This document shows positions 22,653-62,348 of a DNA stretch of 64,000 nt, one piece after another. Position numbers and translations under genes: made by a program. The stretch is from the NCBI GenBank assembly GCA_002224055.1, contig AZLU01000088.1:1-64000 (forward strand), written 5' to 3'. This stretch comes from Pezizomycotina sp. ARF18. Lineage: Eukaryota > Ascomycota. The number at the start of each line of letters is the position of its first letter. Within the stretch, counting starts at the first letter, position 1. The notes below the pieces were generated by a model, which worked only from the letters and a program-made list of their open reading frames with translations, searched no databases and had not been told where the DNA came from.

Positions 22653-24921
22653 TTAGAGGTATATCTGTCCATGCACCGGCCTAGCGACACCCTCGCCGGA
22701 GGCAATCCTAGTTTTTGCGGTGCCACTTCGCCGTACTTTCATCTTAATATCGCCAACTAATCCCACGAGCTCGTCTACATTAGCGTTTGTGCCTGCGTTG
22801 CCTGAATCTAGAACGGAACCGTAGCCTGATTCTGCTTCGGTCGAGGACCCTTGAAGGGCCTTGGAGATTTCCAAGGGGGAGATTGACATCCTCCTTCCTA
22901 AGCGCCAGAAGCCCAGAGCGATGGGATTATGGCACCGAGGCAGGGGAACATATACAAGAGACCTAAAAGGAGGTAGTCTTCGTTGGTGTAATACGTAGCC
23001 ATCATTTCCGTTATTTTACCGGCTGGGTCGTAGACTCTTTTCCAGTACGTTGTAGACGCGTTGGTACCGTCTGCGGCGGCGGGGATATGGTTTGCACCGG
23101 TACTGACAGCTGTTCGGAACGCTATTTCACGGATGCTATTGAGTACGTGCTGGAACGGGTCGCGGAAGCTCACGCTGCATTCGCTACTCGCTAAGGAGTT
23201 GGAATTTGCGAAATAAGACCGAGCGGGCCCTGCGGAGGAGACAAATAGTGATCACCGTCCGGTCCCAGCGTGATATTGCCGGTATCGTTGGAGTATGACG
23301 CGAAAACCTTGTACTCCCTAGAGGAGGCCAGGGATGCTCTAACGCCAGCTTGATCCCGATGACTGTGTACGTCGTGTTTCTAGACGGCAGAAGATTCTGC
23401 ATTATGGAGTCCTCGTTTGGGGCCTGTACGGATTGTTCCGTCGTCGCGTTGGTAGACTTTGAGTAGTTAGCAAAAGCGGAACCGACCTCCGCTTCGGTGA
23501 GATCGTTACGCGAGGGATCTTCCGGAGACGGTCGCAGAATTTCTTTTACGGCATCCGTTTTCGGGCCACCAGAGCGGATTTTGCTGCTCGCGTTCCAATT
23601 GACTGTCGCAACTGGCTGCTGCGGGGTAGTCACGCCACTGGTGACCTTGATCAGGTACGCAACTATTGCCGGAGTCATAGTACATATACGTCGCGTTATG
23701 GAACTGTTGCGGTCTTGAGATTTTTTGTGCGTGATGGTGAGAGTGATGGTCCAGCTGTTTTCGTCGAGAATTCGGCTTTCACAACGTTCTGATGACCATC
23801 AGCACCATTATCATTATCGCTGTTTCCCGAACTGAACACTGAAAACCTCAGCGTACCAGTTAATATCGCTGCCACGCGAAAGCGCCAGTTTATCGCTGAA
23901 GTCAAAGTCGTCCAGCCCCCTAGGTGGAAACTTTACGGTATCCGAATAGCAGTCGTACTGCCAGCCAACTCCGGGTAGCAACGCGGAACAGGTTGCGGAT
24001 GAATCGGACTGGTTGCCGCAGCCCTGGACCTCGAGGTATATTGGGAGTTGCCATTGTAGTCCTTTATAATTTTAGCCAGACTTGGACTCACGTCATCCAC
24101 TTGCCGACCTAATGTTGACACGGATCCTGCTCCTGACTATCCCGGGGGAAGCTGCCGCCCGAGCACCGCTTCCGCGGTGCGGTTAGACTCCATTCCCACT
24201 ACTACCGTGGTGCTAGCTCTTTGAAAGATGATCCGTGGAGCGAGAAGAGCGTGCACGCTATACTCGCAAGGACAGTACGGGCAATAAAATTGAGAGGACG
24301 ACGGCGGCAGACAGAGCACAACAGACACGAAACTACTGCCACTCTCCCAAGCATTATGAAGCTGACGGATTGTCCGGCCGTCCATGGCCGACGTCCACCG
24401 AGCAATCGTGACAGCCTCCGCAAACAAAACGCCCACTAATTTATTTGCGAGTAATGTCAGGGCGGACACCCAAACAGACACCGGAAGCGAAGCGTATAGC
24501 TACGGCCTGAGAACTTAAATTCGCGGGTACACTACTCGGAAACGTTTTTACCATTGGAGACTTTAAGAACGGCGACCAAGGCCCCGGCGATACCCAAGGT
24601 AAGAGCTACCGCCAGGAATCCTAAGTAAGGACGTCGCTGAATAAGGTCGGTCTTCCATTCTCGAGATATATGGGATGGCTTTTTGGCTCTATTGGCGCGA
24701 TAAAAAACCGGAAATCGAGAGAGAAAAAGATGTAGTTAATCACAAAGTTAATCGATGTCCTTTACTGGCAAGAAGGCAGCTTATTGAAGTACCGGGGCGG
24801 TGGAGTGAAGGATTGATAGATGATATGGTATGAGTGATGACTCAACACCCTCGTTTTCAGGATCTGGTGAATCTATAGGTCTGTAGCCGTTTGAGCCAAT
24901 GATATTTTCACTGTAATCCAT
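22653..24921 (-). CDS. Fungal multi-span membrane protein, paralogue 1 (broken frames)
   Basis: Exon 1 (24921-24849) starts MDYSENIIGSNGYRPID. After a 162-base intron, exon 2 starts at 24686 and reads REWKTDLIQRRPYLGFLAVA (first membrane helix), then SVWVSALTLLANKLVGVLFA (second helix). A Cys-containing outer domain, the last helix and the tail SPLEISKALQG follow, with the end at 22653. The order helix - helix - DWE/WES loop - helix - large outer domain - helix - tail is that of a fungal membrane family resembling DUF3176; the exact Pfam family is uncertain. Compared with paralogue 3 it has a TAG where the other copies have Trp (after NVSE) and several single-base frame changes. No function is known. 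It is either a pseudogene or an error-laden sequence. Confidence 0.7.
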
Positions 24922-26703: not shown

Positions 26704-28822
26704 TTAATGATAGACCCGTCCGTGTACCGGCCCAACAACCCCATCATCAGGCGCGAAGCCAAGCCTACCCGGCTCTACCTTACCGTACTTCACTTTAACA
26801 TCACCCAAAAGACCCACTAACTCTTCTATTTGTGCGCCGGTATATCTCTGTTGGTTTCAAGGACTGAACGTTCAGCGGCAGGCCCGTGCAGCGCCTTACC
26901 AATTTCGAGCGGGGATAATGATGTCTTCTCACAGCCGCCAGAAGCCCAGAGAGCCGGGGAGATAGCAGCAAGACAGATGACCATAAGTAGAAGTCCCGCG
27001 ATAAGATACCACTTGTTCGTGGAGTACACGGCGATGGACTCGTCTGACTGAGCTGAATTGTCCGAGACCGTTTTCCAGTGACTGGCGGAAGTGGAGGCGT
27101 TCGGTGCGGTGGTGCCAATATTATCAGCAGCAATGCTGATTGCCGTCCTGAACGCGATGTCATGAACACTGTCAAGGACTGGCTGGAGCGGATCATGGAA
27201 GCTTATATTGCATTGTAAGTCGGCGGGCTTGTCGGTGTTAGTAGACGTGAGGGTAAAGAGGCCTGAGGATCTTTCCATTTGCCAAGAAGGCATCTGAGAG
27301 AGTGTGATGTTATTAGAGTCTAACTCTAGAGCCCATATACCGGCTTGGATGAACCGAGGAACGTCTGAAGTGCGAGCTGAACCCCTATAACCGTGAATAT
27401 CGAGCTCTCTTGAGAGTTTGTGACGGCTTCGTTAGATTGCTGCCCCCAGTTGAATACGCGGTCTCCAGCCGGAGGGTTCAGGACCGTCTCAACATAGTCC
27501 GTCTTCGGCCCACCAGCCCTAGTTTGGCTACTGGCATTCCAACTAACTGTCGAATTCGGGCTTCGCAAGGTCGCGACACCGCCAATAACGCTGATAGGGT
27601 AGTGGACGATCGTCGGCGTCATAGTACGGACACGTCGCGTCAAAGTCGTGTCGCAATCTGATGATTCTTTGTGGATGACTGTGAGGTAATATTCCAAGTA
27701 TTTACGTTTACTTCATTAGCATCGTCATTGGCCTTGGGGTCGAACTGGACCTGAAAGGCATATCCGGACCAGTCAATCGATCCATTTGGGCCATCTGCTT
27801 AAATATCATCTTGCTGAGAACTGCTCAAATCCGTTAGCTCCTTTGGTGGGAAGTTCGGGTGTCTGAATAACACTCGTAATTCTAGCCGAGGCTCGGAGCA
27901 AGGCGCTACAGCTCGTTGTCGAAGCAGACTGGTTGCCGCAGTTTTCAATACCAAGGCTTATCGGAGAGTTCTTATTGTAAGCTTGCATAATATCTGCGAA
28001 AGGTTTGCTGATGGTCTCCAAGGTGAGGAAGCCATGCGCTCCCCAGAACCTAAGCCCGACCAACCCGGCGGATGTTGCTGGCCGATTCTCGCCGATGCTG
28101 TAACTGTCGAGTTGTTTTGTATAACTACCGCAGTTCTAGCCCTCTGGATGATAATCTGAGGGAGGGAGAAGAGGGCGCACGCGACACTCGCAACGACGAT
28201 CCGGCTAATGAAAGCGCGGCGGCGGCACACGGAAAGGACGGCGGACAGCACGCTTCTTCCACATTCCCAATCAGAATGCAATGAGCGATCGTTCGCCCGT
28301 CCATCGTTGAGATCCACCATGCGATGTTAACAACTTCCGCGAATAAGGCTACTATTGTTTTGTTCGCTACGAGCGAAAGAGGCGACACCCACACTGACAC
28401 GGGGAGACGGAAGGTATAGCGTTTGTGGCGGAACCAAGCGTGACCAGTACACCATGTGTTGACGTCTTTACTGTCGGAAGCCCACAGGACGGCGATAAAT
28501 GAGCTGATGGTACTTAGAATGATGACCATGGCAGCAAGGCTCAGATAAGGTAGCCGTTCGAAGAGGCCGGTGCTCCATCGCCGGGTCCCATCTGGAAGCT
28601 CGCCGGTAGCGTCTTTGGAATCTGAGTAGGAAAAAGTTCAGGTTCGTTCAAGAAAACGAAAAAACCGGGGGTTATATGATCATATGCGCACAGAAGTTGT
28701 CACTACAGTGAAATTTTCACTCAGCTCGCAAGGAGAAGGCGAATAGCTTACCCCTCTCAGGATCGAGGCACCTAGCGGCGCATAGCTGACATGGGAACCA
28801 GGAGTTTTTCGTCATGGTCCAT
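26704..28822 (-). CDS. Fungal multi-span membrane protein, paralogue 2 (broken frames)
   Basis: Same layout as paralogues 1 and 3. Exon 1 (28822-28752) starts MDHDEKLLVPMS. The intron (28751-28622, 130 bases) ends CTCAG, and exon 2 begins in the phase G|AT shared with paralogue 3. Readable blocks are RLPYLSLAAMVI (helix 1), LPVSVWVSPLSLVANK (helix 2), SDWECGRSVLSAVLS, NCGNQSASTTSC, TMTPTIVHYPISVIGG, KWYLIAGLLLMVICLAA (C-terminal helix) and SPLEIGKALHGPAAERSV. The tail LGFAPDDGVVGPVHGRVYH ends at the stop at 26704-26706. About six frame changes separate the blocks while the motifs stay intact. The role is unknown; a plasma- or endomembrane location is inferred from the helices. Confidence 0.72.
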
Positions 28823-47922: not shown

Positions 47923-50011
47923 TTAAGAGTATACCCGCCCAAGCACAGGGCCGAGAACGCTGTCTTCCGGTGCGAACCCAAGCTTTCCCGGCGCTACTTC
48001 ACCGTATCTAACCTTAACGTCGCCGAGCAAGTTGACCAGTTCTTCTGTCTGAGCATTCGTGGCATCGTTACCGGAATCTAGGACGGAGCGCTCCGTGGCA
48101 GGTCCGTGCAAAGCCTTTCAATTTCGAGGGGTGAAGAGAAATCTTCCTTCCGAGACGCCAGAACCCCAGAGGGCCGGCGAAATTGCGGAGAGACACACGA
48201 CCATGAGCAGCGCTCCCGCGAGGAAGTACTCCCAGTTCGTACTGTAGCTCGCTACCGTTTCCATTACGTGGCCGGATGGGTCCGAGACCTCTTTCCAGTA
48301 CTTTGTTTTCTTGTTAATTCCAACTAGCGCCTCGCCGCCTACTGAATTGACGCTGATTGTACCTCCGTCTTCATCAGGAGCTACCACAGCTCCGATGTCG
48401 TCTGCGGCAATCGCAAAAGCTGTACGGAATGCTATATCTCGAATGCTGTTAAGTACTTGCTGGAAAGGGTCGCGATAAGTTACGCCGCATTGATTAACAT
48501 CTGCGGAGCCCGGTACGGCGAATATAAGGCTAAGCGCGCCTTCAGACTTTGAGCCATCGCCTCCAGGTTCTCCACAGTAGTGGAGTTCTCGGGTTGGAGC
48601 AAGATAGCCGTTACATCGTTTGTCGAACCGAGTAAGGCTTGCAGAGCAAGCTTGATACCGTTGACCGTGAAGTAGTTCTTTTCGTCGAACTTGGGGCCGT
48701 AAGGATGCGACAGAACTTTCACGACCGTATCTGTTTTAGGACCTCCGGACTTCGTGTGACTGCTTGCGTTCCATTGGACCGTTGATTGCGGGTCTCGCAG
48801 GGTTGTCACACCACTAATGACCGAAATGGGATACTTAACGAGCGCGGGGGTCATAGTGCAGACACGCCGTATCAGGGAAGTTGAGCAATCACCTGATGGC
48901 TTGTGGATGACGGTAAGATTCAAGTTCCATTTGTTCTCGATTTCACTACCACCGTACTCATCGTTGCTGTCGAAATGGATGTCAAAAACTCTGCCAGCCC
49001 AATCTACCGTCTCCTGCTTTTTAAGGCTAGCTCGTTGGTCTTCGGAGACATCTTTTAGGTCGGGCGGGAAATTAAAGGGTACAGTATCGGAGTAGCACTC
49101 GTAATTCCAGCCGACACCGGGTAGGATTGCAGTACAACTCGTCGTTGATGCAGACTGGTTGCCACAACCGCTGACGGCAAGCCGTATAGGGGTTTTATCG
49201 TTGTAAGCTTGCGTTATATCTGACATACTTTTGGTGATGACCTGTACAACGCTTGCAGTCTGCGTGTTCCCGGTACCAGACCAACCGGGCGGCAATTGCT
49301 GTCCCAAAGGCGCAGTCACAGGATGGATGTGAGGGTGCTCAAGCGGCACGGCCGCGCTCGCCTTTTGAAATATGATCCCGTTCAACGAGAACAACGTGCA
49401 CGCTACACTAGCGACAACGATTCGGCTGATGAAAGGGCGCCGACGGCACATAGAAAGTACAGCCGATAACACACTCCTACCGCTCTCCCAGTCGGCATGC
49501 ATTTGGGCAATCGTGCGGCCCTCCATGGCGGAGGTCCACCAGGCGACAGTGACGGCCTCCGCGAACATGATGCCGGCGAGCTTATTCATCGCCAAAGACA
49601 GGCCGGAGATCCAGACGGAGACCGTCAAGCGAACTTTATGGTTGGGAGTGCCGAAGCGGCACCACGTAGCGATGTCCTCGCCTTCAGATATCTTGAGAAT
49701 AACGGCCATTACGCCGGCAAGGCATAAGGTGAGCGCAATAGCTGCAAGACTAAAGTACGGGAGCCGTCGGAGGAGACCGGTGGCCCACGCTCTGGATACG
49801 TCGGAGAGTTTCCCTCTATTGTTTTTCAAATCTGAAGTAAAAGAACTCGAATTAGCCATCGAAAGATTTAGGATACCGAAAATCCATGGATCATAGGGAA
49901 GGCATCGAAAAAAAAAAAAAAAACAGAACGTACCCTCATTTCGGGATCCGCTGGTACGCCTATAGGCCTGTAGTTGACCTGAGAGTCCGTGATTTTTTCG
50001 CCGTAATCCAT
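47923..50011 (-). CDS. Fungal multi-span membrane protein, paralogue 3 (best preserved)
   Basis: Exon 1 (50011-49934) reads MDYGEKITDSQVNYRPIG. A 102-base intron (49933-49832) ends TTCAG. Exon 2 stays open for about 450 codons down to 48480. It has helices at about residues 34-56, 79-105 and 144-165 (counted from an in-frame ATG inside the intron). The loop ADWESGRSVLSAVLS lies between helices 2 and 3, and an outer domain with CGNQSASTTSC and RRVCTMTPALVKYPISVI follows. Then, in other frames, come YRDPFQQVLNSIRDIAFRTA, the last helix (YFLAGALLMVVCLSAISPAL), SPLEIE, KALHGPATERSVLD and the tail GFAPEDSVLGPVLGRVYS. Three or four single-base frame changes are visible. One, at GAAATGAGG in exon 1, reads GAAAACGAGG in paralogue 1, so one A seems missing. 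Function unknown; layout like DUF3176 proteins. Confidence 0.78.
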
Positions 50012-50019
50012 ATTTCTTC

Positions 50020-51010
50020 AGCTCCTCTTGCCTGATGTTTAGTCTCGATCAGACTCCCTTTATTGCTTTTAATATCTACTTGATTTTTGGTGAAGGGAAG
50101 AAAGAAAGTAAAAAGGGCGACGGTGAGTTAGACTGACTCCTTTGAGATTTCCACCCTTCTATTATACATTTCGACTCACCACGGAAGCATCGCGTATTAT
50201 GGCGGGATTCCGCGATTTCAGCAATTCGCTATGAAAGAGGGGGCTATATCACGACGAACTTATGGAGTAAAATTGCAAAAAAAGGCACGAGCACAGCACC
50301 AGGAGATTTTTCTTCGAGAGTACCGAAACCTAGGCCGTTCTAATTTGCCCTAACTGCAATCCATTAAGCGCCTAACTACTGGTTCCAGCGCGGTGGGCTT
50401 CATGCACGCGCGGTCCGAAAAAGAATTGTGGGCTTTTTTTGGTAGGGATATCTCGCTCAATCCGGCCTTGGCGGTGGCGGCGGGGGAGAGCTGAAAGACC
50501 ATCCTCAACCATGATTTAGCCATACACTATCAAATCGGTCGAACCGAACTATTGCCTGACGGAAATGGCATCCGGAGAGCTGAATTTTTTATGAACGAGG
50601 CTTTGGGATATCGACACGTATGCACGTGCGACCTGGGCGGTCGGAGGCTTGACCGTGAACGGAATAAAAGACTTTGAAAAAGCAAGGATAGCTGCATCTC
50701 TCACGTATTTTCTTATTTAGATATTGCAGAGTACAGCCATTTTGACCCTATTCTGATTCCGGGAGAGCTCAATGAAGACTGCCTAATCTTGCAGAGACTA
50801 TGTTACACAAAAGAAATTTGAGAAAGAATATATGCTAAACCAACCAGGAAGAATGGTTTGTTTTATGCACAGAAGGGAGCCTTGATGTTATGCAAAGAAC
50901 ATAGTTATGGAGCGCCATACGATGATCACAAGTAGAAGAAATGTGGAATAAAGGAAATGAATATAGTACAAGCTCCTCAAAATATGACACACGAATTGAA
51001 GCCGTAAATA
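50020..51010. other. Upstream region of membrane-protein paralogue 3
   Basis: It contains the second copy of the duplicated block (50290-50630, listed separately). No other gene is seen. Confidence 0.5.
50290..50630 (+). repeat. Duplicated block, copy 2
   Basis: The counterpart of 46735-47100. It reads FMHARSEKELWAFF in the frame matching FMHERPERELEAYR of the other copy, then YLAQS, then breaks up. It lies about 280 bases upstream of membrane-protein paralogue 3. Confidence 0.45.
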
Positions 51011-51015
51011 AACTC

Positions 51016-53593
51016 TCAGCTCTCATCTCCATCCGTCTCGTCATCGGCAGTGACCTCATTCACCAATGGGCTAGGCGCGGAAGAACTGCTAGTAGCGTGC
51101 GGCGGCATGGGCGGGTCCCACTCCACGCCTTCTTTCGCCCACATCCACTTCAGGTACGCCCGTAGCTCTTTATCCGCCGGAACCACGCGCCGCCACTCCT
51201 CGTCGCCGGGTTCCCATTCCTTGGGATAGGCCTTCTGTCCGTTCGTGATATCCGGTTGAACGTCGACCTTAACCCTCACCTTCCCCTTTTTCGTCTTTGA
51301 AGTCGGCAGTGTAGCCGGAACGGGCGTATAATTTCTAACCCGACGCTCGGCTTCGGTGCGAAATATCCACCATCGCCGGGCTTCTGGCAGAATATCCGCC
51401 AACTATCGAGCGCGTAACACCCGACGCCGTCTAAATGACCGATGATACACCCGAATTGTTTTTTCCACTTTATTTTCCCTTTTAGTGTTTTCGTTTTCTT
51501 TTTCGCTTTCTTTGGCGTGGCGTTCTTCTTAGGAATCCGCGGTGACGAAGGCGGGGAAGAGGTTTATTGCGTGGAAGCGGAGAGATTCTATAGGTCCCTT
51601 AAACCTGCTGCTCTCCTCTACTTCTTCTTCCGAGTCTGAATCGTCGTCGTCGTCGCTGTTCTCATCCTCGTTGTCGTCGTTATTTTCGATAAGTGTATAT
51701 AGGCCGTCGACGATTTCGTAAACTACTTCGTCGGGTTTGTATACCGCTTTCCTCTTCCAGCTTAATTCTCCCTTTTGTTTCTCATAAGGGTCATCAGTGA
51801 CCCACGACTTTGCGAGACTCCAAACATTCTTCGCGCGGTGAGTTTGTAATCCAAGCGGTCTCATGAATTCTACTACTTCTTCCATACTCCCCTTTTCCAA
51901 CAAAGATTGCGGCGTGGAATAGCGCTCCACGAACTTGCGGAAGTAAGGAATCGAAACGGCACCGCGGACTTTATTCAGGAATATAGTGGCGATGAGGAGG
52001 TGGTACTAATTATAATCCATTAAAAATAAGAATAAATTAGCCCTTCATCATATTTTATTCCTCTTCGATTTTTATTTTTGTGGGGTTGTTTCTTGTGCGG
52101 TGTCTTTGTGGAGTAAAGGGCAGAAACAAAAGGGAAGATGTAGGATGTGGTAGTTGTAGTGGTAGAAAGGTGTCGTACGGGATTGTGAGCGAATTCTTCC
52201 TGTATTAGCCCGAACTTCTCGGCGGAGAGCGGCGGCGGGATGATGGCAGATGCGTTCTTAGCTGGGCGAGAAGGGAAATGCGGACTTTTCGTAGGCGATT
52301 GGATAGCTTTCGTGGAGCTCTTTGTCGTGGCTTTGAAGTACTCGCTCCGAGTCGGTGTTCGGAGAGATTGCTTTTTCGTAGTGCTTTCGGATTTGATAAC
52401 TTCGGCCTTATCGATAGCGGTACCGTTTACGGGCGGAGGAATGTCGCGCATCGATTCTACGCCGTACGTCGATTGCTGATTCTAGCGTGTCGTCGTCCTC
52501 GGATTTTGGGGTATCAATGCTTTCTTCTCATTGCGTTTGGAGAAGCCAGTGTTTTCTTCTTTTCCGACTTAGGAGAGGTTGGTGCCTTTTTCTCCAATTT
52601 TGGGGAAGGTGGAGCTTTCTTCTCCGCCTTTGGAGGTATTATGGGCGTGTTTCGTCTGACACGACGGCGTCGTCGGGGTTGATGCGGTCTTGTGCTTCGC
52701 TAGTATCATCTTGGTGTACTCCTGTAGACTCATTTTTGACGACTCTTCCTTCTTCTTATCATCTCGTTTTATTCGTTTATGACGTTTCTTCTCGGTTACG
52801 GCAGTGGAAATCTCTGGAGGCACGATTTTCGTCTTTACCTTCGGTGACGGTTTCGCTGGTATGATATTGGGTGTATCCTCTGCTCGTGGTTTATCCTTGG
52901 CCTTCTTTGATTGCGACCTTGGAACAATTGGCGGCAGGATCTTTGTCTTCGCCCATGCCTCCTTCGGGGTCTTCGCCTTAGGCTTCGTTTTAATCTCCGT
53001 CTTGGCAGCCTGATCTTCCAGATTCGAGTCTAACCACCATCTCTTTGATTCTGGTGTCGCTTGTCTCTTCTTCGCCTTCATAGATGAAGTAGGCGGCGGG
53101 TCGACCTCCTCGGCTCCGTAAGCCCTCGAAGACTTCCGTAGTTCAGCCAGCTCCTCTTCGGAAGATACTATCTCGACCGCGAAAGTCTGCTGCTTCCGCG
53201 TCTTTTTCGGCGTCGGAGGTTTCCTGGCTACTATAGGTGAGGCGCTGTAGGCGAACATTTCGCGCTGCAATTGGGAACTGACCGGGTCGTCATCTATTGT
53301 AGCGTCATTCCCGGTAGGTGAGGCGCCGGCGGATTCGCGTTTCCGCTTCCGAGAACTGACGGGGTCCTTGTGGTTCCGTTGAGAGGCTCGTGGTGTTCGC
53401 TGGCTGCTTCGCAATGAGGTCATGGAGGACGGCGGCGCATCCTCTGTTTCCGCGTCCGCGTCTGCGTCAACATCTACTCGGTATCGTCGCGTTTCGTTCT
53501 CTTCGAGGGGCGTCGGGGTGGTTTTGTAGGGCTGTCTTTGAAATACGGCGACGCCTTCGCTGAAGACTTGCGGCCGCCCGATTCCGACGGCAT
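51016..53593 (-). CDS. MBD4/MED1-type HhH-GPD DNA glycosylase with long disordered N-terminus
   Basis: Enzymes of this type remove T or U opposite G in DNA, including the product of 5-methylcytosine deamination. The start (53593) reads MPSESGGRKSSAKASPYFK. About 350 Lys/Ser/Pro-rich residues follow, then the domain: SAEKFGLIQEEFAHNP, a 173-base intron (52178-52006, phase 0), and YHLLIATIFLNKVRGAVSIP. Then come EEVVEFMRPLGLQTHRAKN and the hairpin and active-site segment GHLDGVGCYALDSWRIFC, whose D (in ALDSWR) is the expected catalytic Asp. The end has EEWRRVVPADKELRAYLKWM. Order and spacing match human MBD4 closely. Odd points: an acidic run (DDDDDSDSEEE) and a Lys-rich run (KKNATPKKAKKK) are inserted before the active-site segment, and there are about four frame changes. 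No methyl-binding domain is visible; fungal homologues I recall lack it too. Confidence 0.88.
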
Positions 53594-53599
53594 GATTCT

Positions 53600-54545
53600 A
53601 GATTCGGGTCCTTGTGGCGATTGAGGCGGTTGGTTCGACCTTTCGCAAGTCTGTTCGTTCCGGGGCTGTTATTTTTGGAATGACCGCGTCGCCGCCGAGA
53701 TACCCTTCCCCCGAGGAAAATTCAAAAACCCGAGGAAGACGCAGGCGTCGAGATCGTCAATATAAGTTATAAATGATAAGAGGTAAAAGGAATGGGTAGC
53801 GGTGATAGACTATTCGTCGAATGAGAAGGCGACGCGAAGCGAAAATGGTATGTGGATGGATGGATGGGTGTTTCTCGGGGAATTATTGATCTATCGTGAG
53901 TGGGGATAAAGAAAATAACTTGGCGAGGGCCAAGACCAAAAAAAAAAAAAATAGTAATATGGGGGTTCTACTTTCGGTTAGCCTTAAAAGGAGAACCCTG
54001 CCAATGACGAAACCTCCGCCAAGATGTCAACTCGAGTATCACGAACCCGAGATTATATATATTGTGACAAAACTGCAGAAAGCGGCATCAGATATTACAG
54101 TAGTAGTAATTCGTTTGGGAATAAACGTAAAATGGAGCTGTATCAGTGGCCTCCTTTGTTCTATCAGAGCCAGATACGAGTTTGCATTATGAACAAGAGA
54201 TTCATGCTTCGAATCCACCACGTCCTCTTAAGACTGAACGCTACTCCATTTGGTTAAATCATCATGCATCAAGTTATTAAACAAACCGGATCGATCTCAG
54301 ACCTATCTAGAGTCTCTTAATCCGTAATGAATGCTTTAAGCTAAAGCTATGGATACGGTGATGACACTTGAACCAACTGCAGCCTTGCTTAAGCTGGTAT
54401 ACGTAGATTGGATTTAAAAAAAAAAAAAAAAAAAAAGTCTCATTAATTTATTACGCTTGATTTGATTCGATTGAAGTTTGAGACACCCCTTTGCAAGTTT
54501 GCGATCTTTTGGGCCATACCTATTAACTATTCCCTTTAATACTAA
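53600..54545. other. Intergenic stretch before the five-gene array
   Basis: It holds the upstream region of the glycosylase gene and A runs at 53939-53951 and 54416-54436. The 98-codon frame at 53896 has no motif and is not accepted. Confidence 0.5.
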
Positions 54546-54773: not shown

Positions 54774-55251
54774 ATGTGTCACACGTGGCATGTTTACCTC
54801 GCTTGCCCCTTTCTTCTGAATTCGAATGGAGCACCCGAAAGGAATCTTTATCACCTCTTCTTCGAGCCCGGTGAATGCGACCACCATCATTGCAGTCGGG
54901 ATCAAAGTCATCGCTTACCGTTTGGGGGCCTTGTGCGGCGAAGACGAAACACACTATTACTACGAACCGTGCGACTGCCCTTCCTGTAAGAGATGGGAAA
55001 GGAAGCTTATTCAGCCCTTAGAGGAGAGTACGGACCATCCAATGTTTAAAAAAACATTTGTGAGGGCGTCAGTGGGCATGAAAAAGCATTTCTCAAACAC
55101 CAAGAAGCTGAAGCAAAAACCATATAGTACCGTACTATCGCCAACTGGCGAAACGAGGATGGCAGTAACGAAAGCCACGGAAACGAGATCTCATGCTAAA
55201 AAAGAAGGCTTGAACCTGCACAATAGTGGAATCAGAAGAACACTTTTGTGA
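54774..55251 (+). CDS. Array gene A: small C-x4-C / C-x-C-x2-C protein (one frame change)
   Basis: It starts MCHTWHVYLACPFLLNSNG, then APERNLYHLFFEPGECDHHH with C. A frame change in that region leads into VIAYRLGALCGEDETHYYYE and PCDCPSCKRWERKLIQPLEE. A basic tail of about 70 residues (KKHFSNTKKLKQKPYS, TRMAVTKATET) runs to 55251. The cysteine pattern matches gene D: a C-x4-C pair, then C-x-C-x2-C, suggesting a zinc-binding core. No signal peptide or membrane helix, so a cytosolic or nuclear place is inferred. Function unknown. It is the first of five tandem copies. Confidence 0.65.
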
Positions 55252-55259
55252 ATTTGATT

Positions 55260-56225
55260 TAGCGTTAACTCACTGGAATTACTGGCAACGTATATACACT
55301 GTGCTTTTTAGAGACGAAATTGAATTAGGAATGAAATAAAGGAAAGAATTTGCTTTGCATACACGGCATTTGACTTGGTAGTGCTCAAGATGGCTGTCCC
55401 GGCAATAAACTGACGGTAATACAAAAGCAATACCACGGATAGATCTAGAATAGAAATTTATATTGAAGACAAACCCACATCGATTAATGCCTTTTTTTTT
55501 TTTTTTTTTTTTTTTTCAACTTTGAAAGAAGGTTCTGCAAGAGAAATTGAACCTACTTCATAATCATTTTGATGCCGGTTTCTCTTTATAAGAATGGTGA
55601 TATAGCTGCTGTCCAGTTTATAGATGTTTTGAGCTCTCTTTGATATGGCACTTCTTTTGGAAAGTAGATATTCCAATCCCATGGATACAGATAATTCTAT
55701 CATGGTGCACTTTTATTAAAACTACTAGTAGCGGTATCTAAAATTGGATCCCTCTCGCTTATCCCGTGGACCATATTGAATATTGCTTAAGTCTCCGGGT
55801 TATTAAGATAGATACTTCTTGAGCTTATGGCCCTCTACATATAACCGTAACTCTCCGCTGCGAGACGAAATTTGAACATTAGGAACTCGAAATTTTATTG
55901 CCTATTGGAGGGAAGTCAAGAAACGGGAAGATATATTTCCCTTTATAAAAGAACTAAGGAAAATCAGATACTTCCGTCGAGAGAGGATATTTTGAATTTA
56001 AAGACGTTTTTTGAAATCTTATAACCAAACAGTGACCGAAAAGCTTTCCTTATCATAAACTTACTTAACTTTAAACCCTTGATCCCTAATAATGCTATCT
56101 AGGCTTATTGCTGTCGGTAGCGTAAGAAAGCTCGAGAAAATGATGAGCTCCTTAAACTTGTTTGGTCACGATCAGCTCTGTAGCTGGTTCTTGATTCGAT
56201 GAAATATTAACATAACAAAAATTAA
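55260..56225. other. Spacer between array genes A and B
   Basis: AT-rich, with a T run of about 25 bases at 55492-55516. No gene. Confidence 0.55.
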
Positions 56226-56230
56226 TCTAC

Positions 56231-56237
56231 TATATAA
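56231..56237 (+). promoter_or_regulatory. TATA box of array gene B
   Basis: TATATAA, 174 bases before the ATG at 56405. The leader element of this copy (ATCTAGGAGGTAATCTTATC) lies at 56298-56325. Confidence 0.45.
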
Positions 56238-56404
56238 GAGATTTTGATATTTACTGCTATCCCTTCTTAATCTTTATAAGATTTTTCATCAATATCAATC
56301 TAGGAGGTAATCTTATCAACAATTACGTTTATATAGGGGCAAAAGCCTAAAACATCGAAACTTAGAAAGGTAATTTAAGAAAATCAATATCAAACTAGAG
56401 GAGG

Positions 56405-56991
56405 ATGTGTCAGATTTTCCACGTTTATCTCTGTAGGAACACCATTACCATAGATCATGTATATGCCTTATTGTACATAAATAGGGGAGCTTTCCTCCCA
56501 TCCTTATCCATCAATCAACACAATGATCGATCCTCTCCACGGTGCTCCAACAATCTCGCCTGCCGGTTCCCACTGAACTCAGATGGCGCGCCCGAAAGGT
56601 ATATATATCGCCTTTTCGTTGAGCCCGGTGAAACGTGCAACATTTCTGGATGCTGGAATAGGGATGTTATTAGTCACTGCTTAGGCGCTCTGTAATATCA
56701 GGACGACGATTATTATTGTTACGAAGAGTGTAAACGTCCTCATTGTAGAAAATGGGAGACGAAGGTCGTTCAGTGCCTTCTAGAGTACGATAATCCTTGT
56801 ACGAAGAAAGCGCTTGTGAGGCGCTTGATGGTATGAAAAGGATGTTTTTAGAGACTGAAAAGTTGACGGAAATACCCCATCACGTAACATTGGCAACCGG
56901 GAAAATAGTTATGGTAGTATCGAAAACCATGGAGCGAGGGAGGAATCGAGCGAAGGAGATAGAGAACAGGAAATTAGCAAAACGTGATTAG
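56405..56991 (+). CDS. Array gene B: small cysteine-motif protein with an LTR-like insertion
   Basis: It starts MCQIFHVYL, is interrupted by 126 extra bases (121-base element plus 5-base duplication), then resumes LACRFPLNSDGAPERYIYRL, FVEPGETCNISGCWNRDVIS, HCLGAL. A TAA stands where gene D has Trp (TGG). Then come YQDDDYYCYEECKRPHCRKW and, after one more frame change, a tail ending at 56991. The insertion is a multiple of three and has no stop in this frame, so the start of the gene stays open through it. The second Cys of C-x-C-x2-C is Arg here. The TGG-to-TAA change and the lost Cys suggest this copy is decaying. Confidence 0.6.
56432..56552. mobile_element. Small solo LTR-like element (121 bases) with 5-base target duplication
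   Basis: The element starts TGTAGG and ends CCAACA (TG...CA ends, imperfect inverted TGT/ACA). It is flanked on both sides by ATCTC (56427-56431 and 56553-56557). It carries a TATA-like ACATAAATAGGGG inside. Ends and 5-base duplication are those of an LTR retrotransposon's solo LTR, at the small size known for TRIM/SMART-type elements. It lies inside array gene B. Its flanking duplications are identical, so it looks fairly young relative to the gene duplications. No internal region is present. Confidence 0.6.
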
Positions 56992-56999
56992 CGAGGGGT

Positions 57000-57400
57000 T
57001 ATTACTAACTTACATAACTGCGCTGTATAAATTCAGTTTGAATCAGAAATGACATCTCTTTAATAAGTGGAAGGAAATCATTAGCTGTTGGAATGGTCGT
57101 TACTTATAGTGAGGTGTGAGCTTCAAGGAAAAAAGAGCGAACAAAAACAATTCACATATCATCCCGTCTAGTTCAACTTAGTGCCGAAGATGCAATAGGC
57201 TTTAATGAGACTTAGAACAGCAGAAATCAAGTTTTGCCTCAGCCTATAGCTTTGATACTGAAAACTCCGCTTGTGGTTCTTAAGTTTGAGTTGTTGTGAT
57301 TGAATTTGATGATATTTTTTTTTTTTTTTTTTTTTTTACAAACTTGCTATAGATATCTTTCGGGTCATCAGGATTGATATTTCGCTTCAATAATAATCCT
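57000..57400. other. Spacer between array genes B and C
   Basis: AT-rich, with a T run at about 57315-57338. No gene. Confidence 0.55.
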
Positions 57401-57408
57401 TATAAATA
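57401..57408 (+). promoter_or_regulatory. TATA box of array gene C
   Basis: TATAAATA, 222 bases before the ATG at 57623. The region after it (GATGGTTGTCCGCGAC ... TAACCACCATA) closely resembles the same part of gene A. A weak version of the leader element lies at 57531-57556. Confidence 0.45.
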
Positions 57409-57622
57409 AATGTCCAATCAATCATGGATGGTTGTCCGCGACCCAGAACTCTCCCTAACCACCATAGGATTTTCCAATCAATTTTTTTTCTTTTATCTTA
57501 GAGCCTAGGCTTACTCCTAAGGACGGATTTAACAACCAGTCTCACCCGGAAGGATCACTAAAAAATAAAAAGCACTAAGCCTCGAAAGTATCGAAACAGT
57601 CGAACCCGCATCGTTGATAAAT

Positions 57623-58068
57623 ATGTGTCAGACGTACCATGTTTATCTCGCTGCCCCCTGTCTTTAGACGGGAGCCTGAAAGATATCCTTATCGCCTCTT
57701 CCTGGAATTCCACGAGGGACGCCGCGAATACTCCGACCGTCATTGCAGTAATGACGAAGTCATCGGTCACCGCTAGGTGCCTATGGCACGAAGACGAAGA
57801 TAATTACTACTACGAATACCTCCGTGCGAGTGTAAGTCGTGTAAAGGATGGGAGACAGAGGTTATTGAGCCCTGAAGGAGGATGACTATTCTAATGCTAA
57901 GAAATCATTTGTGAGGAGAATGACAGGTATGGCAAAAAGATTCTGTAAAGCCGAAAAATTGGTAGAAAAGCCTTATTCTTACAATTGCCGGACGGCAAAA
58001 CGGTCATAGTGGTGACCAAAAGTATGGGGATAGTGGTGATACAGGGGAGGTTGGTGAAAGGTATTTAG
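57623..58068 (+). pseudogene. Array gene C: degenerate copy of the cysteine-motif gene
   Basis: It starts MCQTYHVYLA and then shifts frame several times. Recognisable pieces are REPERYPYRLFLEFHEG, SDRHCSNDEVIGHR, HEDEDNYYYE, PCECKSCKGWETEVIEP, NAKKSFVRRMTGMAKRFCKA and KTVIVVTKSM near the end, with a stop at 58066-58068. The motif order is the same as in gene D, and C-x-C-x2-C is kept, but the first cysteine of the C-x4-C pair is not. About five frame changes make this the least intact copy. Confidence 0.6.
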
Positions 58069-58069
58069 C

Positions 58070-58506
58070 ATTGAGTTACTGGTAGTATTAGGAAATAAAC
58101 TGCGTTTAACTCTAGTTAAAAAAAAAAATTAAAATAAGTTTACTTTTTAATCAAAAGCGTGGCTCATCCACATAGAAGTCTGAGCTGGCAAATAAATTAC
58201 TAATATAACTATTTATAGTTTTAATTAAGTATATAGTAGGAATCGGTAATGGTTTATATTTTGTTAGAGATTATTTATAATAATTCTACTTTATCTCCTT
58301 ATTAGAGAGACCGCTTAAGTAGCGCTATAGATTTAGTAGTTAGCCTCTTAAGATATAAGAGATTTATAATATCGATCCTAAAGCTTCCGTCTAACTACAG
58401 GAACCTAAGCTATCGGCAATTTTATCTTATAGCGAATTGATCTTAAAAAGAGTATATAGCTAGCCGTTAAGCTTAGAAACTACCTAAAATCTCTTTATAT
58501 ATTAAT
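58070..58506. other. AT-rich, RIP-like spacer left of the solo LTR
   Basis: TA-rich DNA without open frames, similar in look to 28.9-29.8 kb. It may be an eroded repeat. Confidence 0.4.
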
Positions 58507-58749
58507 TGTTGGATGTAAGTAGTAAAGGAACATCAAACGACACGAATACATCGAGAATTGCCCGCAGCGCTATGCATCGACCGACCTCGGCCGAGCTCTG
58601 TAATGAACGGCATGCATCGATGCGAGGATATTAACATCGTGAAGATTCGTTTTATATGGAATTCCTTTTGTATATAAACGGCAGGATACTGCCCTCGGTA
58701 GACAGTTTTGGTTCTTCATGCAATTGACAATTTTGATCTTCATCCTACA
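58507..58749. mobile_element. Solo LTR, Ty1/Copia-like, 243 bases
   Basis: It begins TGTTGGATG and ends ATCCTACA, and is flanked by the 5-base direct repeat TTAAT (58502-58506 and 58750-58754). A TATA box (TATATAAACGGC) lies about 70 bases before the 3' end, as in a working LTR promoter. TGTTGGA-type starts are common in Ty1/Copia LTRs. No internal region is present, so this is a single-LTR remnant of an old insertion. The matching duplications suggest it is not very old. Confidence 0.7.
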
Positions 58750-59004
58750 TTAATAATATAAGTCCTCTTTGAGTTTACAATATATTACCGATAACGCTAT
58801 TAGGCGGGATCGTAGAGAGTTTTCCTGAGCTTATAATTTACCTAAGTTTGCGGCTTCCCCCAAACTTGCAGCTTCGATTCATAAGCTCGGCAGTTAATCC
58901 TTCGTTATGATTAAGTTATTTTGCCAAGTTTCGGACATACTCTTTTTATTATTATTGTTCTTATTGTTATCCTTTTTTATATAAAGCCCAAAGAATATCT
59001 AATG

Positions 59005-59011
59005 TATAAAA
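59005..59011 (+). promoter_or_regulatory. TATA box of array gene D
   Basis: TATAAAA followed by GCTC, 165 bases before the ATG at 59170. Gene E has the same GTATAAAA at 60330-60337. Confidence 0.55.
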
Positions 59012-59091
59012 GCTCAGCGGTATCCGGTGTGCCCTGATATCCTCCTCGATCCTTATAACATTTTTTCACTTATACTCTAATAGTTGAAGTA

Positions 59092-59118
59092 ATCTAGGAA
59101 GTAATCTTGCTAGGAATC
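59092..59118 (+). promoter_or_regulatory. Shared leader element, array gene D
   Basis: ATCTAGGAAGTAATCTTGCT plus AGGAATC, 52 bases before the ATG. It is the clearest version of the element shared by the array genes. Gene E has ATCTAGGAACTGATATCACC at 60432-60458. Confidence 0.5.
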
Positions 59119-59169
59119 AAACGCATATCCGCTCAAGAAAATTTTTTTATCATAGATAAGTGTACTACT

Positions 59170-59589
59170 ATGTGTCGGACCTACCATGTTTACGTCGCCT
59201 GCCCTTACCCGGCAAATTCGGACGGCAGGCCTGAAAGGCGTATCGTCCGACTATTCGAGCAACCAGATGATCAATGTCAGGTAACCGGATGCCATAATGA
59301 AGTGGTTATTGGTCACCGTCTAGGTGCTCTATGGTATGGGGAAGATGACCACTACTACTATGAGCGGTGCAATTGCCCATGGTGTAGGCGATGGGAGAGG
59401 AAACTCATCCAGCCCTTAAAAGCTTTTTTTCACTCAGCTCAGTACAAGAAGAGACTCGTAAGACGTCTGACGAATATGAGTACGTCATTTACGAGAACAC
59501 TTAGGTTGGCGGAAATGCCGTATTCCATACAACTGGCGAACGGCAAAACGGTTATCGTAGTTACGAAGAGGATGATATCTGCGGAATAG
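59170..59589 (+). CDS. Array gene D: intact small C-x4-C / C-x-C-x2-C protein, 139 aa
   Basis: This is the only fully open copy and the reference for the family. It starts MCRTYHVYVACPYPANSDG; the ATG at 59170 is chosen because all five copies start MC. Landmarks: Cys2, Cys11, PER at 21-23, the pair Cys36/Cys41 (CQVTGC), GHRLGALW at 48-55, YYYE at 62-65, and Cys67/69/72 (CNCPWC) followed by RRWERKLIQPL. A basic region then ends PYSIQLANGKTVIVVTKRMI. The spacing C-x4-C-x25-C-x-C-x2-C could hold one zinc ion, with the extra Cys or His as further ligands. No signal peptide, membrane helix or known domain is seen. Function unknown. The shared TATA box and leader element suggest common regulation with its neighbours. 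Confidence 0.8.
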   Translation: MCRTYHVYVACPYPANSDGRPERRIVRLFEQPDDQCQVTGCHNEVVIGHRLGALWYGEDDHYYYERCNCPWCRRWERKLIQPLKAFFHSAQYKKRLVRRLTNMSTSFTRTLRLAEMPYSIQLANGKTVIVVTKRMISAE

Positions 59590-59594
59590 GCTAG

Positions 59595-60325
59595 TAGATA
59601 AATTTGCGAGTGTTCTTTCATTGTGGGTTAAATGTAGTTTTATTGGCAGATACTGCTTAAGCCCCCAGGTACTTTCATGACCATCCATATATATAAATGA
59701 TTAGTTAGGCTAAAATTCTCATTCATTAGTGAAAATAACTCAAATAGAACATTGCTCAATTTCGTAACTGCCTTTGTTTAATTGGTGATAGAAGAAAGTG
59801 CTGCAAACTTCATATATACCTCTTTCTAAAATTCTTTCCACTGCGTCCAAACTTGATGCCTCGAATTTAAATATCTCCGAACCTTATTATTGTAATTTTT
59901 CTGCATCTAAGATGTGTTTGAAAACCAATATCGTAGACCCGACTACAGGCTATCGATACGCAATAGTACTCTTAGGCTACCTTATATTGGCAGCGTAAAG
60001 CGAACTTAAAAACCTCGATACGTTTTTTAAGCTTGCGTTTGACGCGAAAAGCTCTGTATTAAGTCCTTGCTGCTATTCGATTGAGTTTTGGGTCCTGTTT
60101 TACTATTTTGAAAGCTCTTGTGTGTTAATAGTCTTTAGTAACGGCTGACTACCATTACCAGTATATTAAGACGAGTTCGTGAAAGTTATGTAGTATTGCT
60201 TCTAAGTATTGTTGTACATATACGTTATATTGCTTTGACTCGATGTAATTTGTGAAAAAATACCGCTTTACTACGTTCGAAACCATTACCATTACAGACT
60301 TTCAACGTTAAAATTCAAGAATATT
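59595..60325. other. Spacer between array genes D and E
   Basis: AT-rich, no gene. A 66-codon frame at 59798 has no motif. Confidence 0.55.
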
Positions 60326-60330
60326 CGATG

Positions 60331-60337
60331 TATAAAA
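60331..60337 (+). promoter_or_regulatory. TATA box of array gene E
   Basis: TATAAAA, 139 bases before the ATG at 60470. Confidence 0.5.
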
Positions 60338-60469
60338 ACTTCCCGATATGTTACCTTTGTCCACAACTTGGCCATCTACTTCATCTCTTGAAAAATCTCC
60401 CGCTCATTACATACTTTATATCTTTTCGAGAAATCTAGGAACTGATATCACCAAGGGGTACAAGCAAAT

Positions 60470-60936
60470 ATGTGCCAAGCAAACCACGTCTACCTTGCTT
60501 GCCCCTTTCCCCCGTGCTCAGGAGGCATACGCGAAGAGCACCTCGTCCGCCTCTACACTGAGATCCATGCCCCGTGCGAAGATTCGCGTTGTCCAACGAC
60601 CAGGTCATTGCTTACCGTTTGGGTGCTCTGTGGTGTGAGGACGACGAAAACTATTACTACCAGTACCCAACCTGCGAATGTCTCCATTGTATGCGGTGGG
60701 AAAAGAAGATCGTCCAGCTGTTGAAAGATCCCGACCTCTCCATTCGAAGCAAGATAACACTCGTGATACGGAAGCGGGCATGGAGAAGTCATTCTCAGAA
60801 ACTCGTAAGATGGTGGAGATGCCGTGACCTTGACACTAAAAGATGGCAAGACGGTTGTAACAGTGGTGACAAAAAGCTCGGCCCAGTAAAAATAAATCTT
60901 AGAGAAGAGGCGCTAAATCGTGAAGAAGAGGCTTGA
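60470..60936 (+). CDS. Array gene E: small cysteine-motif protein (one or two frame changes)
   Basis: It starts MCQANHVYLACPFPPCSGG, then REEHLVRLYTEIHAPCEDSR with C (the C-x4-C pair). After a frame change come SNDQVIAYRLGALWCEDDEN, YYYQYPTCECLHCMRWEKKI and VQLLKDPDL. The tail runs on as ITLVIRKRAWRSHSQKL and ends EEEA at 60936, but the usual GKTV-type ending (KDGKTVVTVVTK) is readable in another frame, so a second slip is likely. All core cysteines are present. Confidence 0.65.
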
Positions 60937-61823: not shown

Positions 61824-61846
61824 TTTTTTTTTTTTTAAAAAAAAAA
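61824..61846 (+). promoter_or_regulatory. T13-A10 tract before the secreted-protein gene
   Basis: A T-to-A switch ends 12 bases before the ATG at 61859, like the tract before the gene at 34217. Confidence 0.4.
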
Positions 61847-61858
61847 CCCTTTATCAAA

Positions 61859-62348
61859 ATGCAGTTCTCCATCGTCGCCATTACTCCATCTTCCTCGCCG
61901 TCTCCACGGCAGCGCCACTTCCCGGCAACGGCGGCTCACTTGCCGCAGGTGGTACCAGATCGCAAGCGGAGCGGACCCTCTTGGCGCCCCCGCCGCAGAT
62001 CCGGCGAGCGCCGCCGACCCGACCGGTACTGGTCTCGACCCAGCCACTATAGTGCAGGAGCAGCTCTCCGCCGCAGGTATTCCAAACGAGGGAGGCGAAG
62101 TTTCGATCATCGACGAGAACGGGAACCCTGTTCAGGGAGCGGGAGCCGGGAGCGGCGCACATGACTCTGGAAACGCGGTCGATGGGCAGAGTAGCCAGGG
62201 TAACCAGATCCAGGGAGAGAATAGTCAAGCAGTCGGGCAAGGCCAAGGGAACCAGATTCAAGGTGATAACAGCCAAGTTGTCGGAGATGGAAACGTGAGC
62301 GTTGGACAAGGTGACCAAACCCTTGGAAGCGGAAATATTACGGTTTAG
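61859..62348 (+). CDS. Small secreted protein with GNQIQG-type repeats
   Basis: The ATG at 61859 opens MQFSIVAIT. In the next frame SIFLAVSTAAPLPG completes a good signal peptide with a cleavage site near STAAP. A Gly/Ala/Pro-rich part follows. After another frame change comes DPATIVQEQLSAAGIPNEGG, then VSIIDENGNPVQGAGAG, QGNQIQGENSQAVGQGQ, GNQIQGDNSQVVGDGN and VSVGQGDQTLGSGNITV to the stop at 62346-62348. The short G-N-x-I/V repeats suggest a small beta-solenoid or an extended wall protein. No cysteines are seen in the repeat part. Both frame changes fall in repetitive runs (CCATTACTCC, CCCCGCCGC). Secretion is inferred from the signal peptide; no family is recognised. Confidence 0.6.

Follow-up and report, generated by a model that had tools for sequence, protein, structure and literature searches.

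A tandem array of five small genes in Pezizomycotina sp. ARF18 as part of a large seven-cysteine family unnamed in the libraries searched

The window analyzed here comprises 64,000 nucleotides of Pezizomycotina sp. ARF18 (assembly GCA_002224055.1, contig AZLU01000088.1, designated C88, bases 1-64000) and carries five small related genes, copies A to E, between positions 54,774 and 60,936. By sequence comparison this array is one among many arrays of a large family with seven conserved cysteines, and five is not the size of the family. The reading preferred here, to which a probability of roughly 45% is given, is that its members work inside the cell as binding proteins with a metal-supported structure, and that tandem birth and death of genes has expanded the family. 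The five genes form one array of a large, old, and unnamed family that would have grown by tandem duplication and dispersal, and each encodes a small protein without a signal-peptide-like start in which a seven-cysteine core is followed by a variable tail. The cysteines would bind zinc and hold a compact, zinc-finger-like module, which would serve within the cell as an adaptor that binds protein or nucleic acid and whose partner differs between copies. The zinc, the fold, and the role as adaptor are our inferences from the sequences.

All five genes lie on the forward strand with starts at 54774 (A), 56405 (B), 57623 (C), 59170 (D), and 60470 (E). The start-to-start spacings are 1631, 1218, 1547, and 1300 nt, respectively, in agreement with an earlier note on this DNA, which had described five same-strand copies 1.2-1.8 kb apart. 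The features of the array are as follows.

54774..55251, forward strand: copy A, with an N-terminal piece (54774-54893) and a C-terminal piece (54907-55251) in different frames
56405..56931, forward strand: copy B, with a solo long terminal repeat (LTR) inside, an in-frame stop directly after HCLGAL, and the tail in another frame
56432..56552, forward strand: solo LTR in copy B, 121 bp, TGTAGG...CCAACA, with ATCTC on either side
57623..58070, forward strand: copy C, D-matching pieces with five frame changes; stop-free pieces at 57675-57773, 57784-57819, and 57822-57872
59170..59589, forward strand: copy D, 139 aa in a single open frame, cysteines C2, C11, C36, C41, C67, C69, and C72
60317..60349, forward strand: upstream stretch with TATAAAA, 33 nt, 76% alike to 58991-59023 upstream of D
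60470..60936, forward strand: copy E, with an N-terminal piece (60470-60592) and, after three frame changes, further pieces that begin at 60595, 60780, and 60827

The product of copy D has a mass of 16.5 kDa and an isoelectric point of 9.4. Stop-free pieces of A, E, and B share 46-55, 43-48, and 57% identity with D, respectively, and copy A shows one frame change in 417 nt, with no internal stop in either piece. When D was searched with tblastn against the 46.4-Mb genome, B was matched at E 1.6e-26, the C-terminal part of A at 3.4e-21, and the C-terminal part of E at 3.3e-10. Copy C was unlisted in that search and was found by comparison within the window and by ungapped tblastn on the array. 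The motifs named earlier (an MCxTxHVYxACP-like start, PER...RLF, HRLGAL, YYYE, C-x-C-x2-C, and RWExK) are present, cleanest in D and A and partly changed in B, C, and E. Because D and E share the TATAAAA stretch and the aligned 5' flanks of A to E show some further likeness, the duplicated unit may include upstream DNA. The content of guanine and cytosine (GC) in the array stretch is lowish, at 0.35-0.43.

The assembly searched for further members comprises 46.36 Mb in 408 contigs. A tblastn search of its own genome with D returned 16 matches at E 1 or below, among which several are fragments of a single copy, and other members as queries widened the set. A core profile built from 8 members was then applied, with E limited to 0.05, to 5370 six-frame segments of DNA around matches. 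It assigned 42 copies to 18 places on 16 contigs, with 0 hits in reversed segments, and missed copy C of the window, which brings the total to 43 copies. Since the profile search covered the surroundings of matches only, these family counts are lower bounds. Two or more copies occurred in 12 of the 18 places, and 21 of 24 spacings measured 1.1-1.9 kb. One place on contig C3 is interrupted by a gap of 7.1 kb and might be taken as two, and C104 is the sole place with copies on both strands. Beyond the 42-copy count, further places were found at C104:107046, C104:108624, C3:215148, C187:46094, C62:88605, and C3:185324, while C82:20339, C150:90230, C328:7494, C18:167119, and C148:31505 were left out as weaker or less certain. 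The seven copies readable in one frame encode proteins of 93-160 aa. In support of a tandem origin, the closest relative lay in the same array for 17 of 41 pieces, compared with a mean of 2.5 when labels were shuffled, and this held for all six pieces of A, B, D, and E (C is outside this set). One family copy also stands at the very end of an AT-rich contig end (locus L021, C311:30000-37952), where the ratios used to detect repeat-induced point mutation (RIP) are RIP-like at 1.33 and 0.57.

Seven cysteines, including Cys2, make up the conserved signature, which amends the earlier motif description. Over 54 non-redundant pieces and in profile numbering, the counts were Met1 31/31, Cys2 30/31, Tyr8 30/33, Cys11 34/34, Pro12 28/34, Arg26 28/35, Cys35 36/37, Cys40 36/38, Gly51 38/42, Asp57 32/41, Tyr63 34/38, Cys66 31/35, Cys68 32/34, and Cys71 29/32; 8 of the genes counted also built the profile, and the counts are not independent of it. 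As possible metal ligands, the seven cysteines are each kept in 89-100% of covering pieces. In an alignment of 16 member cores, which share 21-39% identity with D, the invariant residues (D numbering) are M1, C11, C41, and G52. The cysteines of D fall into three groups (C2/C11, C36/C41, and C67/C69/C72) within the first ~85 residues, after which the variable tail follows, and beside them a framework of Y-L-x-C-P, R, G, and D....YY is conserved. In short form the family reads MC-x8-CP ... C-x(1-4)-C ... G ... YY-x2-C-x-C-x2-C, some members having small inserts, and the libraries searched contain no such family.

Seven cysteines in three groups would fit a small metal-structured module, and to this extent the suggestion that the cysteines look like a zinc site holds, with zinc itself as the presumed metal. 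The idea of a conserved core with diverging tails stood for the core; the tails are indeed more variable, but their divergence is partly frame-shift noise.

In Pfam, D alone produced hits far below the cut-off (11.9 versus 23.2 bits). Hits of the 16 members touched one member each (best EAV_GP5 at E 0.0081, CitX at 0.018, and CSL zinc finger at 0.042), at chance level and inconsistent with one another. NCBIfam, with its bacterial and archaeal models, returned 0 families. By sequence, nothing significant was found in the PDB. There the 16-member profile matched the DNA ligase III zinc finger best (E 0.077), ahead of a decarboxylase small subunit (0.33) and fibronectin (0.49), and in reversed form it matched nothing up to E 10. 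The library searches brought up no recognizable enzyme or membrane family, and a literature search at title and abstract level returned nothing recognizable as the seven-cysteine family. Within Pfam, NCBIfam, and PDB sequence searches, the family thus appears unnamed, as the earlier note had supposed in recognizing no described family. Copy D was also compared with collections that are not fungal and whose negatives are silent on other fungi: phages gave 0 matches (E up to 0.1) and plasmids 0 (E up to 0.01), while 7 pattern stretches in viral contigs and 33 in prokaryote genome contigs were found, none of them confirmed.

Proportions of synonymous (pS) and nonsynonymous (pN) differences were compared between stop-free pieces. 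Pairs within the window had pS of 0.54-1.01, pN of 0.19-0.39, and pN/pS of 0.31-0.54, and the array on C3 had pN/pS of 0.54-0.60. The third codon position was the most variable in all 3 comparisons of the C3 array and in 10 of the 11 distinct ones of the window, the exception being C versus A over 20 codons. A, C, and E thus show coding constraint too. Synonymous change near or beyond saturation indicates that the copies are old and have been coding for most of their history; at this level dN/dS, the ratio of the corresponding rates, cannot be stated closely, and a recent loss would not show. The comparisons with D (pN/pS 0.31-0.52) point to purifying selection on average, beside which short bursts of positive selection may have occurred. 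They do not bear out the proposed selection for variety. Neutral substitution rates in all copies, which the same note had named as evidence against its view, were not seen either, as pN/pS stays below 1.

Most copies of the array are broken in frame, and HSP70 and RPB2 genes of the same assembly served as the yardstick for frame errors. The HSP70 gene on C49 (53036-54818) consists of 7 abutting pieces with 6 frame changes, and its span of 1783 nt against a model span of 1779 nt leaves no room for introns. A second HSP70 on C208 has 3 frame changes (1436 versus 1410 nt) and RPB2 on C15 (325788-326910) has 2 (1123 versus 1113 nt). These three genes, with spans within 2% of the model, total 11 changes in 4342 nt, or 1 per 395. 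With the HSP70 genes on C70 and C3, whose spans exceed the model by 88 and 169 nt, the five genes total 22 changes in 7674 nt, or 1 per 349. Genes with longer spans were left out of the rate (HSP70 on C303 with 6 changes and on C44 with 1, and RPB2 on C236 with 2), and so was the HSP70 on C10, a single damaged piece. This rate is a lower bound, as close compensating changes are missed; the copies searched favor conserved ones, and the yardstick settles no single copy either way. In HSP70, some of the matching frames are stop-free over most of the gene, and the match moves to another frame and back again. Frame error is not uniform, since a weak RNA-polymerase match at C257:16366-17040 lies in an unbroken open frame of 879 aa, unlike other genes of the assembly, and an RPB2-type match on C82 keeps one frame for 951 nt, with 2 TGA.

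From this rate, a 420-nt gene would be unbroken with a probability of 0.30-0.35, which predicts 1.5-1.7 unbroken genes out of five, and one of five was seen. The claim that only D is fully open is correct for the letters of this assembly, but as evidence of decay it is weak because HSP70 and RPB2 genes are likewise cut. Sequencing errors in the assembly, more than gene death, may account for most of the broken look of many copies, though perhaps not for all of it, and they would probably explain most frame changes in A, C, and E. An apparent graveyard may therefore hold many working genes, and open-frame arguments are unsafe in this assembly. The breakage of the HSP70 and RPB2 type is assembly-wide, and any argument from open frames or pseudogenes in this genome needs that control. 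A comparable case is Drechmeria coniospora, where initial nanopore assemblies contained less than 1/6 of 305 conserved single-exon genes at full length and polishing added A/T homopolymers in places (PMC7500977); that case concerns long-read nanopore data, whereas the genome studied here may have been sequenced in another way.

It is thought unlikely that introns or programmed frameshifting split the frames: the halves of A and E lie a few bases apart, the direction of the shift varies among copies, and HSP70 and RPB2 look alike in this respect. RIP, for which a high TpA/ApT and a low (CpA+TpG)/(ApC+GpT) are expected, was rejected as a cause of decay in the array, where these ratios are 0.97 and 1.03. 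The window contains 34 A/T runs of at least 12 (~0.02 in random letters), for example at 54416, 55492, 57315, and 60947, and a run of 15 G follows copy E; some of these runs may be artefacts of the assembly.

Copy B differs from the other broken copies. Its 121-bp insert, which was absent from the earlier description of the array, is a solo LTR. At least 41 genome matches of this LTR were found including itself (40 of 68 candidates scored). Four LTR pairs lie 7.16-7.20 kb apart, one on C250, two on C22, and one on C178, and the pair on C250 has the five bases CGCAT at both outer ends, which is the anatomy of an LTR retrotransposon. The elements on these three contigs, near 7.2 kb in length and bounded by LTRs of ~120 bp, form a recognizable family. 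The in-frame stop of B has D-matching sequence on either side, and one cysteine of its C-x-C-x2-C is altered. We take copy B to be a true pseudogene on the evidence of its solo LTR, stop, and changed cysteine.

Several observations weigh against the preferred reading. The adaptor role is drawn from protein size and the lack of a recognized enzyme motif only. Seven cysteines do not divide neatly into four-ligand sites, none of the histidines is strictly conserved, and the cysteines may instead form disulfides. The leads to zinc are at chance level, both for the ligase III finger and for CSL (1 of 16 members), and unrelated families score better elsewhere. The closest relative lies outside the own array in 24 of 41 pieces. 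Finally, 10 frame changes relative to D were counted in the array (A 1, B 1, C 5, D 0, and E 3) against 5.3-6.0 expected (Poisson P 0.04-0.08). Across the family, a length of 198-255 nt would let 20-25 of 42 cores be expected in one frame, and 18 were observed (P 0.015-0.30 by the length and rate used), with one-frame cores judged by a lax criterion over profile positions 3-68. Some real decay in the copies is likely enough.

These frame counts bear most directly on the alternative of a decaying array, with D as the only gene still working and A, B, C, and E as true pseudogenes. The state of B, the five and three changes of C and E, and the excess over the HSP70/RPB2 rate all favor it. However, that rate is itself a lower bound taken from genes that are similarly frame-shifted, copy A has only its single change, and the pieces of A, C, and E have been under protein constraint, although such constraint reports the whole history and not the present state. 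A wholly decayed array around D is therefore considered unlikely, though it deserves to be taken seriously.

The family could also act outside the cell as effector-like proteins exported by a non-classical route, with the cysteines as disulfides. Small, cysteine-rich, arrayed, and expanded proteins in a lower-GC stretch with an LTR would suit this explanation. In a plain hydropathy test without a dedicated predictor, none of 32 N-termini had a signal-peptide-like hydrophobic stretch (highest 10-residue mean 1.68). The label "effector-like" is thus not supported in its classical secreted sense, and this result weighs on classical export only. Purifying selection on average also speaks against such a role, as does the general observation that C-x-C-x2-C clusters are more usual in metal sites. 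Export by another route is rated as improbable.

The presence of many divergent arrayed paralogs, at least one of them hit by a retrotransposon, could likewise suggest genes of the spore-killer, incompatibility, or anti-transposon type that multiply through conflict within the species, in a manner perhaps resembling the wtf genes of fission yeast. The library searches, however, recognized no family of toxins, membrane proteins, or nucleases, and pN/pS lies below 1, which leaves genetic conflict with a small chance of being correct.

The cysteine N-degron pathway is known in plants and animals. A highly improbable combination would be an undescribed eukaryotic metal-binding domain with at least 43 paralogs in which Cys2 of the Met-Cys start is both a metal ligand and a redox degradation signal; if this were true, the whole paralog set would be switched together by oxygen or nitric oxide via the exposed N-terminal cysteine. 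Slimmer still is the chance that these are simply N-degron proteins, in which Met removal exposes Cys2 and its oxidation controls protein lifetime: the nearly constant Cys2 (30 of 31 N-terminal pieces) agrees with this, but Cys2 is kept about as well as the other six cysteines, as a structural ligand would be, and the analogy comes from plants and animals.

Other genes were identified in the window outside the array. On the reverse strand, a DUF3176 gene (PF11374, E 8.5e-12) lies at 48118-50048 and a weak second copy (E 0.0026, below cut-off) at 28128-28637. Similar-looking pieces occur at 22653-24499 and 26826-27712, and those scanned had no Pfam match. A piece of an HhH-GPD DNA glycosylase (PF00730, E 5.9e-6), seemingly frame-split from its neighbors, was found at 51532-52005 on the reverse strand. 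At 61839-62348 on the forward strand, a small Gly/Gln/Asn-repeat protein (GNQIQG and SQ repeats) without a Pfam match is encoded, with a secretion-like start in another frame.

Among known systems, the PARP-type zinc finger of DNA ligase III (PDB 1uw0) resembles the family in part of its layout, and it is treated as a lead only. The C-x(1-4)-C pair, [VI]-x-G, and Y-x-x-C of the family align on the C-x2-C, IGK, and H-x2-C of the finger. In contrast, the match is not significant, the histidine that is the third ligand of the finger is not conserved, and the family has extra conserved cysteines beyond the aligned ligands as well as the N-terminal Met-Cys. The single member touching the CSL zinc finger (PF05207) gives no support for membership. 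Many ascomycete proteins of unassigned function start with Met-Cys and end in a C-x2-C pair (the "MC...C-G-H" type); they may be comparable, but the second motif of the family is Y-L-x-C-P, not C-G-H. The wtf genes of fission yeast form arrays with divergent and dead copies near LTRs. Here the likeness is one of arrangement, drawn without sequence comparison, and a conflict role for the seven-cysteine family would be conjecture.

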